Shown here in pieces: positions 50,295-55,876 of a stretch of 64,000 nucleotides of DNA. The stretch lies in IMG/VR virus record IMGVR_UViG_3300034272_001608, positions 1 through 64,000 of that record; one strand, 5' to 3'. Numbering within the stretch: the stretch's first letter is position 1; every line of letters begins with the position of its first letter. Source of the stretch: a virus. The notes below the pieces were generated by a model. That model saw only the letters and a list, made by a program, of their open reading frames with translations, did not search any database and had not been told where the DNA came from. The translations under genes were made by a program, and so were the position numbers.

Positions 50295-50831
50295 TTATTT
50301 TTTAACTACAAATAATTTATTAGTTGAATTTATCATATCAACCTCTTTGGCTGAGTATATTGGTTCTCCACCTTTTTTATATACAAATGAATCGTTTTTA
50401 TATGGGTTATATGTTATGATATTATCTGATGTTTGAGAAGGAATCTCTTTACAAGGGTGTTCACAATAATCTAATAAATCCCCAATCACAAACGCGTGAA
50501 CGTTTTTGGATTTCTCAGCACGCACTCTATCTTTACCTCCTGGTCTAACTCTAAACTCAACATCACCTAACTTAACAAAATCTGCGTGTAGTATTACTTT
50601 AGATTTATAAGTAACTGAGAATGTGTGTTTATGTAAGTTATAATAAACCATAACTCTTTTTCCTATATATTCTTTTTCAGAGTTATCATGTCCGCACTTG
50701 TGACAGATGTAAGGGTCATCTCCTCCATCCGAAAGTTCCCAAGACCAACCACAACTATCGCAGATAACTTTACCATCGGTAATAGTCTCTACAATTTTTC
50801 TTAATTGTGATTCTGTAACAATAACTTTCAT
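50295..50831 (-). CDS. Zinc-ribbon protein with ITESQL-type N-terminus
   Basis: 178 residues. It begins MKVIVTESQLRKIVET, a short tag-like helix I know from various phage virion proteins of similar environments. Residues ~24-50 form a zinc ribbon: CDSCGW and, 18 residues later, CHKCGHD. A globular domain follows with VILHADFVKLGDVEFRVRPG. It overlaps the upstream 170-residue gene's end by one base and precedes the tail-completion gene by one base. A head-associated or neck role is plausible from context; DNA or RNA binding through the ribbon is possible. Function is not established. Confidence 0.6.
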   Translation of the reverse strand: MKVIVTESQLRKIVETITDGKVICDSCGWSWELSDGGDDPYICHKCGHDNSEKEYIGKRVMVYYNLHKHTFSVTYKSKVILHADFVKLGDVEFRVRPGGKDRVRAEKSKNVHAFVIGDLLDYCEHPCKEIPSQTSDNIITYNPYKNDSFVYKKGGEPIYSAKEVDMINSTNKLFVVKK

Positions 50832-51398: not shown

Positions 51399-53150
51399 AT
51401 GGATGTAAGTTTAGAATCTAAAGCATTGTCTCTGTTGGAATCTTATGAAGGTGGAAACAACTACATACTTGAACTTAAAAGAAAGTCACAAATAAATAAG
51501 AAGTTTTACCCAACAAGAAGTCAATCAGAGTACATTATAAATAACCATGACAAACAACCTAAGGTTGCCAAGAAGTGGGTTATTTTAGATGCGTATTTTG
51601 CCAAAAAATTGGCAGACGATAAACTAATGACCGAAATACCAGAAAAGGTTTGGGTTGAAAAGTTACTTGCTGATAAAGAAAAGGCATATCACATTTGGGG
51701 TAAAATTACAGAAACACAAGAACTCCACGACTTTTGGTTACCAAAGGCGGCAATTATAAAAGACAACACGGTAAAAGATGTTGTTATTAGTTATGACAAA
51801 TACTCTCACCGCCCCCCGTTAGAGCACCAAAAAGAAGCAATTCAAAAACTTGTTGAAAATAAAAAGTTTATCTTGGCCGACGACATGGGTCTTGGTAAAA
51901 CCACCTCAACAATTATTGCCGCTTTAGAAACAGGTGCTAAAAAAGTTTTGATAATTTGTCCAGCAACTTTGAAGATTAACTGGAAACGTGAAATTGAAAA
52001 TTACTCTGATAAATCAATATTCATTTCAGAAGGAAAAAGTTTTAGTACAGAACACGATTTTGTTATCATAAACTATGACATTATAAAAAACTTCCATGAT
52101 AGTAAGAAAAAAGATGAATCTCAAATTTTTATTGCCAATTTTGATTTGGTGGTTGTTGATGAAGCACACTATATCAAAAATCCTACGGCGCAAAGAACAA
52201 AACTAATTAACGATATTGCAAAAAAGGTTGACAGATTGTGGTTACTAACTGGTACCCCAATGACATCAAGACCCATGGACTATTTCAACTTGTTGAGCCT
52301 TATTGAATCACCCGTTGCAAAAAATTGGATGGCTTACGCCATTAGATATTGTAATGGATATCAATTTAATGTTGGGGGTAGAAAAGTATGGAATGTAACA
52401 GGTTCATCCAACTTGGAGGAATTAAGAGACAGAACATCTCCTCTTGTATTAAGACGATTAAAAGAAAATGTTTTGGACCTTCCAGATAAAATTATTACAC
52501 CAGTTTACCTTAGATTAAAATCAAAGGCTTATGAAGAGGTTATGGGTGAGTATTATGATTGGTATGATAAAAACCCTGAAGAATCTAAATCGTTGACGGT
52601 ACAATTTACAAAGCTTACAAAAATTAGACAAATAATTGCTGATGAAAAAATTAATCAGACAATTGAAATTGCTGAAAACATTATCGAACAAGATAAGAAG
52701 GTTATTATATTCTGTAACTTTACTGACTCATTAAATAAAATTTGTCAACATTTTGGTAAAACCGCAGTAAAGGTTGATGGGTCCATGACAAAACCAGAAA
52801 GACAACACAGTGTTGACTCTTTTCAAGAAAATGAAAAAGTTAAAGTTTTTGTTGGTAATATTAAAGCGGCTGGAGTTGGGCTAACACTGACCGCGGGGGA
52901 GGCTGTTATTATGAACGACCTATCTTTTTTACCGTCAGACCACGCTCAAGCAGAAGACAGAGCGTATAGATATGGACAGAAAAATAATGTTTTGGTTTAT
53001 TATCCAATATTCGAAAACACCATTGAAGGTATTATCTACGATATCCTAAACAACAAGAAACAAGTCATCGCAACTGTAATGGGTGACAATCAAAATACAT
53101 CAGATGCCGCTGAAGAAATTTTGAAGAGAATCAATGAAAGTAGAAAATAA
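51399..53150 (+). CDS. SNF2-family DNA helicase/ATPase
   Basis: 583 residues. SF2 motifs of the SNF2 type are present: motif I LADDMGLGKTTS near 158-169, motif II VVVDEAHYIKN near 249-259, motif III LLTGTP near 282, motif V GVGLTLTAGE and motif VI QAEDRAYRYGQ near 520. The first ~130 residues form an accessory domain. SNF2 proteins translocate on double-stranded DNA; in phage they may remodel forks, displace proteins or help repair, the niche T4 fills with UvsW (503 residues). It leads the plus-strand operon, with its own promoter, and is followed by the SOD fusion gene. Confidence 0.85.
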   Translation: MDVSLESKALSLLESYEGGNNYILELKRKSQINKKFYPTRSQSEYIINNHDKQPKVAKKWVILDAYFAKKLADDKLMTEIPEKVWVEKLLADKEKAYHIWGKITETQELHDFWLPKAAIIKDNTVKDVVISYDKYSHRPPLEHQKEAIQKLVENKKFILADDMGLGKTTSTIIAALETGAKKVLIICPATLKINWKREIENYSDKSIFISEGKSFSTEHDFVIINYDIIKNFHDSKKKDESQIFIANFDLVVVDEAHYIKNPTAQRTKLINDIAKKVDRLWLLTGTPMTSRPMDYFNLLSLIESPVAKNWMAYAIRYCNGYQFNVGGRKVWNVTGSSNLEELRDRTSPLVLRRLKENVLDLPDKIITPVYLRLKSKAYEEVMGEYYDWYDKNPEESKSLTVQFTKLTKIRQIIADEKINQTIEIAENIIEQDKKVIIFCNFTDSLNKICQHFGKTAVKVDGSMTKPERQHSVDSFQENEKVKVFVGNIKAAGVGLTLTAGEAVIMNDLSFLPSDHAQAEDRAYRYGQKNNVLVYYPIFENTIEGIIYDILNNKKQVIATVMGDNQNTSDAAEEILKRINESRK

Positions 53151-53176
53151 ACAACTTACGGATTATTTATAATCAA

Positions 53177-54730
53177 ATGAATAATCCAAAGATGAATAAA
53201 ATAGAAGAAAAGATTCAACAACTCGAGACACAAATTGTAGAACAAAAAGTGACAAGAGAAAAAGAGTTGTTAATCACAGAAATGAAAAAAATCGGAATAG
53301 AGAAATTACCCTATTCTTACTCAGCCCTGAAACAGTTCATTGACCAAGAGACGATGGACTTCCACTACAACAAACATTACAAGGGGTATGTAGACAAGTT
53401 AAACGCCGCTTTAGCCAAGAAAAAATACGGAGACTTAGAGTTAGAACAGATAATCAAAACAATCAGTCGTTTTGATAAAACAATTAGAAATAATGCTGGT
53501 GGTGCATTTAACCACGCGTTATTTTGGAACATGTTAACCCCACAACCAAAAAAACTTCAAGGGGAATTATATAAGAAAATCACAAAAGAGTTTGGAAGTT
53601 TTCCAGCATTTAAGAAAAAGTTTGAGACAATTGCCAAAGACAGATTTGGGTCAGGTTGGGTTTGGTTGGTATTAACCGCAAAGAACGGTCTTAAAATTAT
53701 GTCTACACCAAACCAAGACAATCCATTGATGAATGTTATTGAAGGTGGTGGGTTTCCTCTTTTAGGTTTGGACCTTTGGGAACACGCATACTATTTGAAG
53801 TATAGAAACAAAAGGGACGAATACATTACAAACTTTTGGAAAGTTGTTAACTGGGATTTTGTTTCTAAATTATATGAAATGAAAACCGAAACAAAACTTT
53901 TAGAGTCGGTTGAAATGGCAAAAATAATAACCGAATCAAAGGAGGCTGAATTTTGTGATAACAAAGAAGTTCAGTTCTACAGAGAATTAATTAACAATCC
54001 AAAAATTAAAAGAGTATACCAAGACGGGGTTACCAGTGTATTAAAACAAGTGTTTCACCAATTTTGGGTTGAAAGTACCAACGAAGAAATGTCAGGTTTC
54101 TATGGTGTTGAATCTAAAGAAGGAAGGTCAATATTAAATAACCTAAACACAAACTTCAACGCATTCTGTTTGTTAACCAAAGCGGTGAACAATCAAATTG
54201 AGAACATAGGAAAACCTGAAAAGAAATTTGATTTTAGTAAAAAAGAAAAAAGAAACATAAGTGAGGTTGCCAGATTAATTAAAGCTTTAGACCATTTCAA
54301 GAAAGATATTTTTACAAAAAACAATCAAGATTTTATAAACATAATTAAAGTTTTAAAAAAACTTTGGGATAGAGGACAAAAGTCAGAAGACGATGTGTCG
54401 TCAAAAATTACAAAATATTTTGGTTCAGAATCTTCTGTTGAAAAGATTAGTGGTCACGGAGAAAAAAACGATGCGTTTAAAGGAATTGATTTAATTGTGA
54501 ATATTGGTGAAAGAAAATACACCGCACAAGTTAAACCGTTTTCTAATATGAAAAACGAAGATGGTAAAATAACTGTATATGATACGGGTAACGTAAAACC
54601 ATACAACGTAAATTGGTTGATATTTATTAACACGAAATCTAATAAGATTTTAATTTTTGAAAATAATCCAGTGAAGGACCACCATCAATATGTGTTTGAT
54701 GAATCGTCTTTAATACACGAAATAGAATAA
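53177..54730 (+). CDS. Fe/Mn superoxide dismutase fused to a probable PD-(D/E)XK nuclease domain
   Basis: 517 residues. Residues ~40-232 are a complete Fe/Mn superoxide dismutase: PYSYSALKQFI, FHYNKHYKGYV (His63), FNHALFW (His113) and LDLWEHAYYLKY (Asp199, His203), so all four metal ligands are present. The first ~40 residues form a short coiled coil. Residues ~240-420 are helical and unrecognised. Residues ~425-517 look like a PD-(D/E)XK-type nuclease fold: GIDLIV with Asp438, then YTAQVK with Gln451 and Lys453, a Q-x-K variant of the active site. Fusing a superoxide-removing domain with a DNA-cleavage-like fold is not something I recognise. A TATTTAT element lies 7 bases before the ATG. The gene may belong to the early plus-strand operon with the SNF2 helicase, or to a late unit with the neck gene. 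Confidence 0.7.
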   Translation: MNNPKMNKIEEKIQQLETQIVEQKVTREKELLITEMKKIGIEKLPYSYSALKQFIDQETMDFHYNKHYKGYVDKLNAALAKKKYGDLELEQIIKTISRFDKTIRNNAGGAFNHALFWNMLTPQPKKLQGELYKKITKEFGSFPAFKKKFETIAKDRFGSGWVWLVLTAKNGLKIMSTPNQDNPLMNVIEGGGFPLLGLDLWEHAYYLKYRNKRDEYITNFWKVVNWDFVSKLYEMKTETKLLESVEMAKIITESKEAEFCDNKEVQFYRELINNPKIKRVYQDGVTSVLKQVFHQFWVESTNEEMSGFYGVESKEGRSILNNLNTNFNAFCLLTKAVNNQIENIGKPEKKFDFSKKEKRNISEVARLIKALDHFKKDIFTKNNQDFINIIKVLKKLWDRGQKSEDDVSSKITKYFGSESSVEKISGHGEKNDAFKGIDLIVNIGERKYTAQVKPFSNMKNEDGKITVYDTGNVKPYNVNWLIFINTKSNKILIFENNPVKDHHQYVFDESSLIHEIE

Positions 54731-54748
54731 TAAAGATATTTATTAGAT

Positions 54749-55876
54749 ATGGCAGTATTACCAGAACCAGAAAGAAGTAGAATATATACGAGAATCAAAC
54801 ATCAATTGGGTGCTCCACTTAGAAGTGTTGAACTTGAGGATGAAATGATGGACTCGTTGATGGAATTAGCGATTGGGGATTATGAAGAATATATCCTTCA
54901 ATGGTTAATTGATTCTCAATGGGTTAACCTTGTGAATTTAAACATGAACGAAAGGTCTGTAGCAAGAGCTTTGGTTACAAGAACTATGGATTTTGAACAA
55001 CAGTTCAGTTATTCGTATTCTAAAATTGTCGGACTTCAAACCGAAGGACCATGGGTTTTAAAGAAAGATTACTTTATATTAAGTGCCAACACTCAAACTT
55101 ACGAAATACCTGCGGGCAGAGAAGTTAACGAATTACTATGGTTTTCTAACCAAGCTTGGACCGCATTTGGTTTAGGTGGAATGGGTGGATTCGGTATGGG
55201 TGGTGTTGGATTAGGGGCTAATGAAGCGGGATTTGCCCAAATGGGATATCAAGGCTCTTATTTTATGATGTCAGGTTTTGATTACCTGATTAGAATGCAA
55301 GAAGCAAACATTTTAAATAGAATTTTAGGTGGTTCATTAACTTATAGAATTACAGGATTACCTGATGGTAAAAAGTTAATACACTTATATAACACACCTG
55401 GTGGTAAGTTTAATTGGGCTAACTATAACCTATACGTTGGTAAAGCTGTTTGGTATTGGTATTACGATGTGGAACCTGATAGTAGAGGAGATTGTCTTAA
55501 AAATAATCCTGATATTATTAAATTACCTACGGATGTTCCAATTGAAGAATTGACTTGGACCGACTTAAACGTACCAGGGCAACAATGGGTGAGAAGATGG
55601 TTTACCGCATACTGTAAAGAAACACTAGCAAGGGTTAGAGGTAAGTACAGTGGTAACTTGAAAACACCTGACACAGAAATTACAATGGACTATCAAAGTT
55701 TATTGACCGAGGCAAAAGACGAAAAAACCAAATTGATTGAAGAATTAATTGGTGCTGAAGGTTGGTTAACAAGAATGAGACCTGATAAAGTAATGGAGAG
55801 AGAAGCCTTAATTGCTGAAAACTTAAATAAGCAAATGAAATTTAGGGCTATGCCTCGTCAAATATACGTAATATAA
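54749..55876 (+). CDS. Neck protein, gp13-like
   Basis: 375 residues (T4 gp13 is 309). The opening SRIYTRIKHQLGAPLRSVEL and ELEDEMMDSLMELAIGDYEE follow the neck-protein pattern of T4-like phages (RxLGxP followed by an acidic D/E-rich dimer helix). A Gly/Met/Phe-rich loop (GMGGFGMGGVG) occurs near residues 145-157, and WVRRWFTAYCKETLARVRGK near 285-304 is a conserved helix. gp13 and gp14 form the collar that closes the filled head and accepts the tail. It is on the plus strand, apart from the rest of the tail genes. A TATTTAT element lies 6 bases before the ATG. Confidence 0.65.
   Translation: MAVLPEPERSRIYTRIKHQLGAPLRSVELEDEMMDSLMELAIGDYEEYILQWLIDSQWVNLVNLNMNERSVARALVTRTMDFEQQFSYSYSKIVGLQTEGPWVLKKDYFILSANTQTYEIPAGREVNELLWFSNQAWTAFGLGGMGGFGMGGVGLGANEAGFAQMGYQGSYFMMSGFDYLIRMQEANILNRILGGSLTYRITGLPDGKKLIHLYNTPGGKFNWANYNLYVGKAVWYWYYDVEPDSRGDCLKNNPDIIKLPTDVPIEELTWTDLNVPGQQWVRRWFTAYCKETLARVRGKYSGNLKTPDTEITMDYQSLLTEAKDEKTKLIEELIGAEGWLTRMRPDKVMEREALIAENLNKQMKFRAMPRQIYVI

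Follow-up and report, generated by a model that had tools for sequence, protein, structure and literature searches.

The window analyzed here, i.e. positions 1 to 64,000 of the IMG/VR virus record IMGVR_UViG_3300034272_001608, contains a gene coding for a Fe/Mn superoxide dismutase (SOD) joined to a nuclease-like domain, and the reading that we favor from the sequence is that its product is a late SOD-nuclease associated with the virion and possibly split into two enzymes inside the particle. The gene is a single uninterrupted reading frame with many stops on the opposite (-) strand; its parts and neighbors are listed in Table 1.

Table 1 Features of the fusion locus, given as positions in the window
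Feature	Position	Strand	Supporting observations
SNF2-type helicase, upstream neighbor	51399..53150	+	PF00176, E 1e-29
TATTTAT box of the fusion gene, probable late promoter element	53164..53170	+	kept in relatives
SOD - PD-(D/E)XK fusion gene, 517 aa	53177..54730	+	open frame; architecture shared by 108 distinct complete relatives
N-terminal helix, residues 1-40	53177..53296	+	L/I-x-E at E22 (91% of relatives) and E35 (100%)
Fe/Mn superoxide dismutase domain, residues 41-236	53297..53884	+	Pfam PF00081, PF02777; ligands invariant (108/108)
Linker, about 20 aa, residues 237-257	53885..53947	+	L-x-E 241-243, I-x-E 251-253; possible prohead protease sites
Helical middle region, residues 258-383	53948..54325	+	AF2 model of residues 246-517
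PD-(D/E)XK nuclease-like domain, residues 384-517	54326..54727	+	AF2 and Foldseek; key residues invariant (108/108)
TATTTAT box of the neck gene	54737-54743		
Neck protein (head-tail adaptor Ad2), downstream neighbor	54749..55876	+	phrog_211, E 1.5e-10

The initial annotation had proposed a complete SOD fused to a PD-(D/E)XK-like nuclease domain and suggested a search for other SOD proteins with the same C-terminal domain. This search of IMG/VR yielded the 108 distinct complete relatives, in which the SOD and the C-terminal half (residues 246-517, hereafter the C-half) share a gene, so the fusion is real. The 236 IMG/VR loci retrieved with C-half queries, many of which overlap, encode both parts in one gene with the sole exception of locus L141 (816-2275), where a frameshift, representing either a sequencing error or a broken copy, separates the middle region from the nuclease domain. 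The scan with the SOD domain only produced at least 597 relatives, the best 80 of which were inspected, with 79 being fused and one lying on a contig cut off within the gene. A chance or assembly fusion is ruled out by these two sets of matches, and sequence comparison shows the fusion to be old and stable as well as common to a large group of T4-like phages.

The four metal ligands named in the initial annotation, namely His63, His113, Asp199 and His203, are all present at these positions, and both Pfam domains of the SOD score above their cut-offs: Sod_Fe_N at residues 41-120 (E 1e-22, 80.8 bits against a cut-off of 27) and Sod_Fe_C at residues 128-231 (E 4e-40, 136.4 bits against a cut-off of 20.9). 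Among solved structures, the nearest relatives are SODs and for the most part manganese enzymes, the best being 6gsc (MnSOD, E 2.6e-60). Gln180 in the C-terminal SOD domain is invariant in the 108 proteins and occupies what we take to be the place typical of Mn-type enzymes, which suggests Mn or cambialistic metal use. The nearest cellular SODs, with about 53% identity, are mostly from Bacteroidota, which agrees with, without proving, the probable Bacteroidota hosts of these phages. Mean column identity among the 108 proteins is 0.91 in the SOD, 0.64 in the linker, 0.66 in the middle region and 0.63 in the nuclease region, while 33 representatives share 85-100% identity with the window protein in the SOD and down to 35% in the C-half. 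A recent, unstable capture of the SOD is ruled out by its being more conserved than the rest of the protein and only about half identical to the nearest cellular enzymes. The full-length AF2 model, made with ten close sequences, was poor in the SOD part because of the shallow alignment and was left out.

The AF2 model of the C-half, built on 33 diverse sequences, has a mean pLDDT of 89.4 and a pTM of 0.80 and shows an endonuclease-like alpha/beta fold with a core of helix and mixed sheet. In this structural check, set beforehand, the best PDB matches found with Foldseek were I-Ssp6803I, Hjc, the SPARDA complex and NhoI, all of which are known as, or taken by us to be, PD-(D/E)XK enzymes; the best match has an E-value of 2.4e-3 (prob 1.00), so that this is a fold-class assignment and not a sign of close kinship. 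Residue E404 lies in the long preceding helix, and D438 and Q451-x-K453 are placed on neighboring strands; Asp438, Gln451 and Lys453 are found exactly where the initial annotation had put them, and these three together with E404 are unchanged in all 108 relatives as well as in a distant stand-alone homologue from phage LR756501 described below. By its modeled fold and residue pattern, the C-terminal domain is thus predicted to belong to the PD-(D/E)XK superfamily. It shares the core fold and the E ... D ... QxK pattern with I-Ssp6803I, the Hjc resolvase and NhoI, but sequence profile searches revealed no sequence-level relationship to them. Searches for a sequence family of the C-half in Pfam, PHROGs, PADLOC and PDB profiles were empty except for phrog_5018 (E 0.007), a family of unknown function, and the helical N-terminal half of the C-terminal module had no match.

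The invariance of the SOD ligands and the nuclease residues despite C-half identities as low as 35% points to kept catalysis, and both domains look catalytically intact from their sequences. The same invariance of four ligands and four nuclease residues argues against the protein being a purely structural component of the virion, in which the two enzyme folds would serve as assembly or DNA-binding modules with no need for catalysis; virions do at times re-use catalytic folds and the neck gene adjoins the fusion, but we regard this explanation as quite improbable.

Outside the fusion, the C-half was found in the 735-kb phage LR756501, where a 290-aa gene without SOD is homologous to the entire C-half and has the same catalytic residues (E 2e-4, whole-collection tblastn). 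At 29% identity, a divergent fused relative, L103, links the C-half to the LR756501 protein. The C-half profile detects the latter at E 1.5e-94, which does not count as independent proof because the profile contained the LR756501 sequence. On these comparisons the C-half is a separate module. No stand-alone C-halves were found in IMG/VR with a search whose pattern step favors close relatives, and no C-half homologues were found in bacterial genomes. The BFVD entry A0A8D9CCA0, a 1113-aa protein of an uncultured marine phage, matches the C-half structure over 291 columns (E 6.6e-15, TM 0.77, 19% identity), and the modeled module may be joined there to another partner. A 423-aa protein of the 317-kb record G002 (L456:1695-2966, minus strand) gave a weak C-half profile match (E 2.8e-6) spanning the helical middle; its N terminus is tag-like, a D...QVK stretch lies close to its C terminus, and it is possibly a second nuclease of the same kind.

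The SODs of Pseudomonas phage PA5oct-like and Vibrio jumbo phages belong, like the fusion, to the Fe/Mn SOD family (PF00081/PF02777), but they match the SOD part of the query only, the fusion having an extra 280-aa nuclease-like module after the SOD and a 40-aa helix before it. In UniProt, the 501-aa protein A0A6J5L953 from an uncultured Caudovirales phage is annotated as “superoxide dismutase” only, and its structure matches the C-half with a TM of 0.82, so it is most likely the same fusion, which is therefore very probably already present in that database. Deposited relatives carry the bare name “superoxide dismutase”, with no description of the second half found, and no description of the fusion was found in the literature searched, many subscription papers being outside its reach.

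The window contains T4-like replication genes coding for gp32, a family B polymerase and a DnaB-like helicase, as well as sheath, tube and baseplate genes. The record to which the window belongs is a fragment of 66 kb. Among ten long contigs with the fusion, nine code for both an S77 prohead protease (PF03420) and a capsid protein of the T4 gp23 type; in the tenth, which may be incomplete, neither was matched. By gene content, the fusion-bearing phages are a widespread T4-like group.

The fusion gene starts 26 bases after the SNF2 helicase gene and ends 18 bases before the neck gene, and this order is kept in 75 of the 79 distinct cases. The SNF2 gene is located directly 5′ of the fusion in 76 of them and slightly farther away in three, and the neck gene follows in 78, the remaining contig ending before it. 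Upstream of the fusion gene there is a TATTTAT box, which was found in all 78 relatives compared. When counted within 45 bases 5′ of genes, the box precedes 12 of 43 genes in the window (0.42 expected), 72 of 343 in record G001 (4.45 expected) and 37 of 146 in record G005 (2.13 expected), with no enrichment of the inverted box among the window genes. The marked genes in the window include the sheath, tube, baseplate wedge and neck genes, and those in G001 and G005 the scaffold, protease and portal-like genes, while the box is absent upstream of the replication genes of the window. It resembles the inverse of T4 late TATAAATA and probably serves these phages as a late promoter element. As it marks virion genes, the fusion is probably a late gene, and the timing of expression, which the initial annotation had left open, is narrowed accordingly to the late period.

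The probable late expression also suits the main rival explanation, less likely in our estimate than the one preferred below, that the protein stays whole and processes DNA in the cell late in infection. Its C-half would then be a resolvase-like, branch- or end-processing nuclease acting, as T4 gp49 does, before packaging and together with the adjacent SNF2 helicase, and the SOD would shield DNA from superoxide during replication or packaging. The late box, the fixed SNF2 neighbor, the occurrence of Hjc resolvases among the best fold matches and the lack of RuvC matches in five records, while control genomes gave matches, speak for such an enzyme; however, the match to this fold is a weak one of a generic PD-(D/E)XK kind (E 5e-3), the search for endonuclease VII matched nowhere and is hence uninformative on its absence, and the conserved L/I-x-E sites described below would be left unexplained. 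A role as an anti-defense or host-takeover effector, which would cut host or competing DNA in the cell while the SOD blunts a superoxide-based host response, is improbable, since the late box and the neck-gene synteny agree poorly with early takeover unless the protein is injected. A nuclease fold and a SOD within one chain would suit such an effector, as would the faster evolution of the C-half compared to the SOD, which arms-race factors can show, but the known defense families in PADLOC gave no match.

L/I-x-E motifs are kept in at least 80% of the relatives at five sites, namely 22, 35, 202, 243 and 253. The one at 202 falls inside the SOD active-site motif, and the other four bracket the SOD domain. 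In the linker, L/I241-x-E243 is present in 108 of the 108 relatives and L/I251-x-E253 in 93%, the other positions being variable and E243 being the sole invariant linker residue. T4 gp21 cleaves after L/I-X-E, and T4 internal proteins are loaded into the head via a short capsid-targeting sequence (PMC9026906). Near their N termini, the capsid protein of the fusion-bearing phages contains LINE-A and LLE-S, and the S77 protease contains ILE-A, at all of which we infer cuts. The flanking pattern around the SOD thus has the look of a domain excised by a protease, with the reservation that L/I-x-E is short and common, which counts against packaging and cutting, as do the lack of such a tag in the stand-alone LR756501 homologue and the closeness of the E35 site to the SOD fold. 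The association of N-terminal LxE tags with the late box was significant in G001 (P 4e-5) but was not reproduced in G005 (P 0.61), and the reversed control in G001 gave 0.005.

Shared amphipathic N-terminal tags such as MKKIIRLTESDLTRLVKRVIREQ or MKVIVTESQLRKIVE were observed in the window gene 50295-50831 (minus strand) and in many genes of G001, for example 223371-223910, 235352-235834 and 258970-259332, and are possible capsid-targeting sequences. In the window gene, the tag and a zinc-ribbon-like stretch precede a match to the Mycobacterium phage L5 gene 82 protein family (PF25735, E 1.3e-29).

In the explanation we prefer, to which we assign a probability of roughly 0.4, the fusion protein would be made late and enter the prohead, where a gp21-like protease would cut it at the L/I-x-E sites to either side of the SOD. 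Cutting would release the SOD and the nuclease module as separate internal virion proteins that would be ejected along with the DNA, the former removing superoxide around the DNA of the phage, whether inside the head or on entry, and the latter acting on host or competing DNA or on phage DNA ends. This reading is favored because the catalytic residues of both domains are invariant and the C-half has a nuclease fold, because the late box is universal among the relatives compared and marks virion but not replication genes, because the neck gene adjoins and nearly all long contigs encode gp23 and the S77 protease, because L/I-x-E is conserved around the SOD and also occurs in the capsid protein and protease, and because T4 provides a precedent for both L/I-X-E cutting and packaged internal proteins (PMC9026906). 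The T4 internal head proteins IPI-III and Alt enter the head by means of an N-terminal capsid-targeting sequence of about 10 residues, to which the N-terminal helix of the fusion with I-x-E22 may correspond, and are processed by gp21. The fusion resembles them in the gp21-type protease of the phage, the conserved L/I-x-E motifs as candidate cut sites and the late box, and would likewise be packaged; it differs from them in that the proposed cut sites also lie between two enzymes instead of only at the N terminus. We know of no direct T4 precedent for packaging a 517-aa two-enzyme protein and then cutting it mid-chain. The fold, the residue conservation and the fusion put forward in the initial annotation all held, while the virion role it had listed among several is favored by the late box, the neck-gene neighbor and the L/I-x-E sites.

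SOD genes of phages are commonly classed with stress genes or auxiliary metabolic genes. In the many viral contigs described here, fusion ties a SOD permanently to the fold of a DNA enzyme, and the position of this fusion at a fixed neck-gene site behind a virion-gene box would tie superoxide defense to the virion or to DNA packaging. It is conceivable, though doubtful, that the SOD and the nuclease are packed as one polyprotein, split by the protease and injected, with superoxide at the entry site being cleared ahead of, or during, the attack on DNA or its processing. The fusion offers a direct and simple way of testing whether antioxidant enzymes travel inside phage particles.
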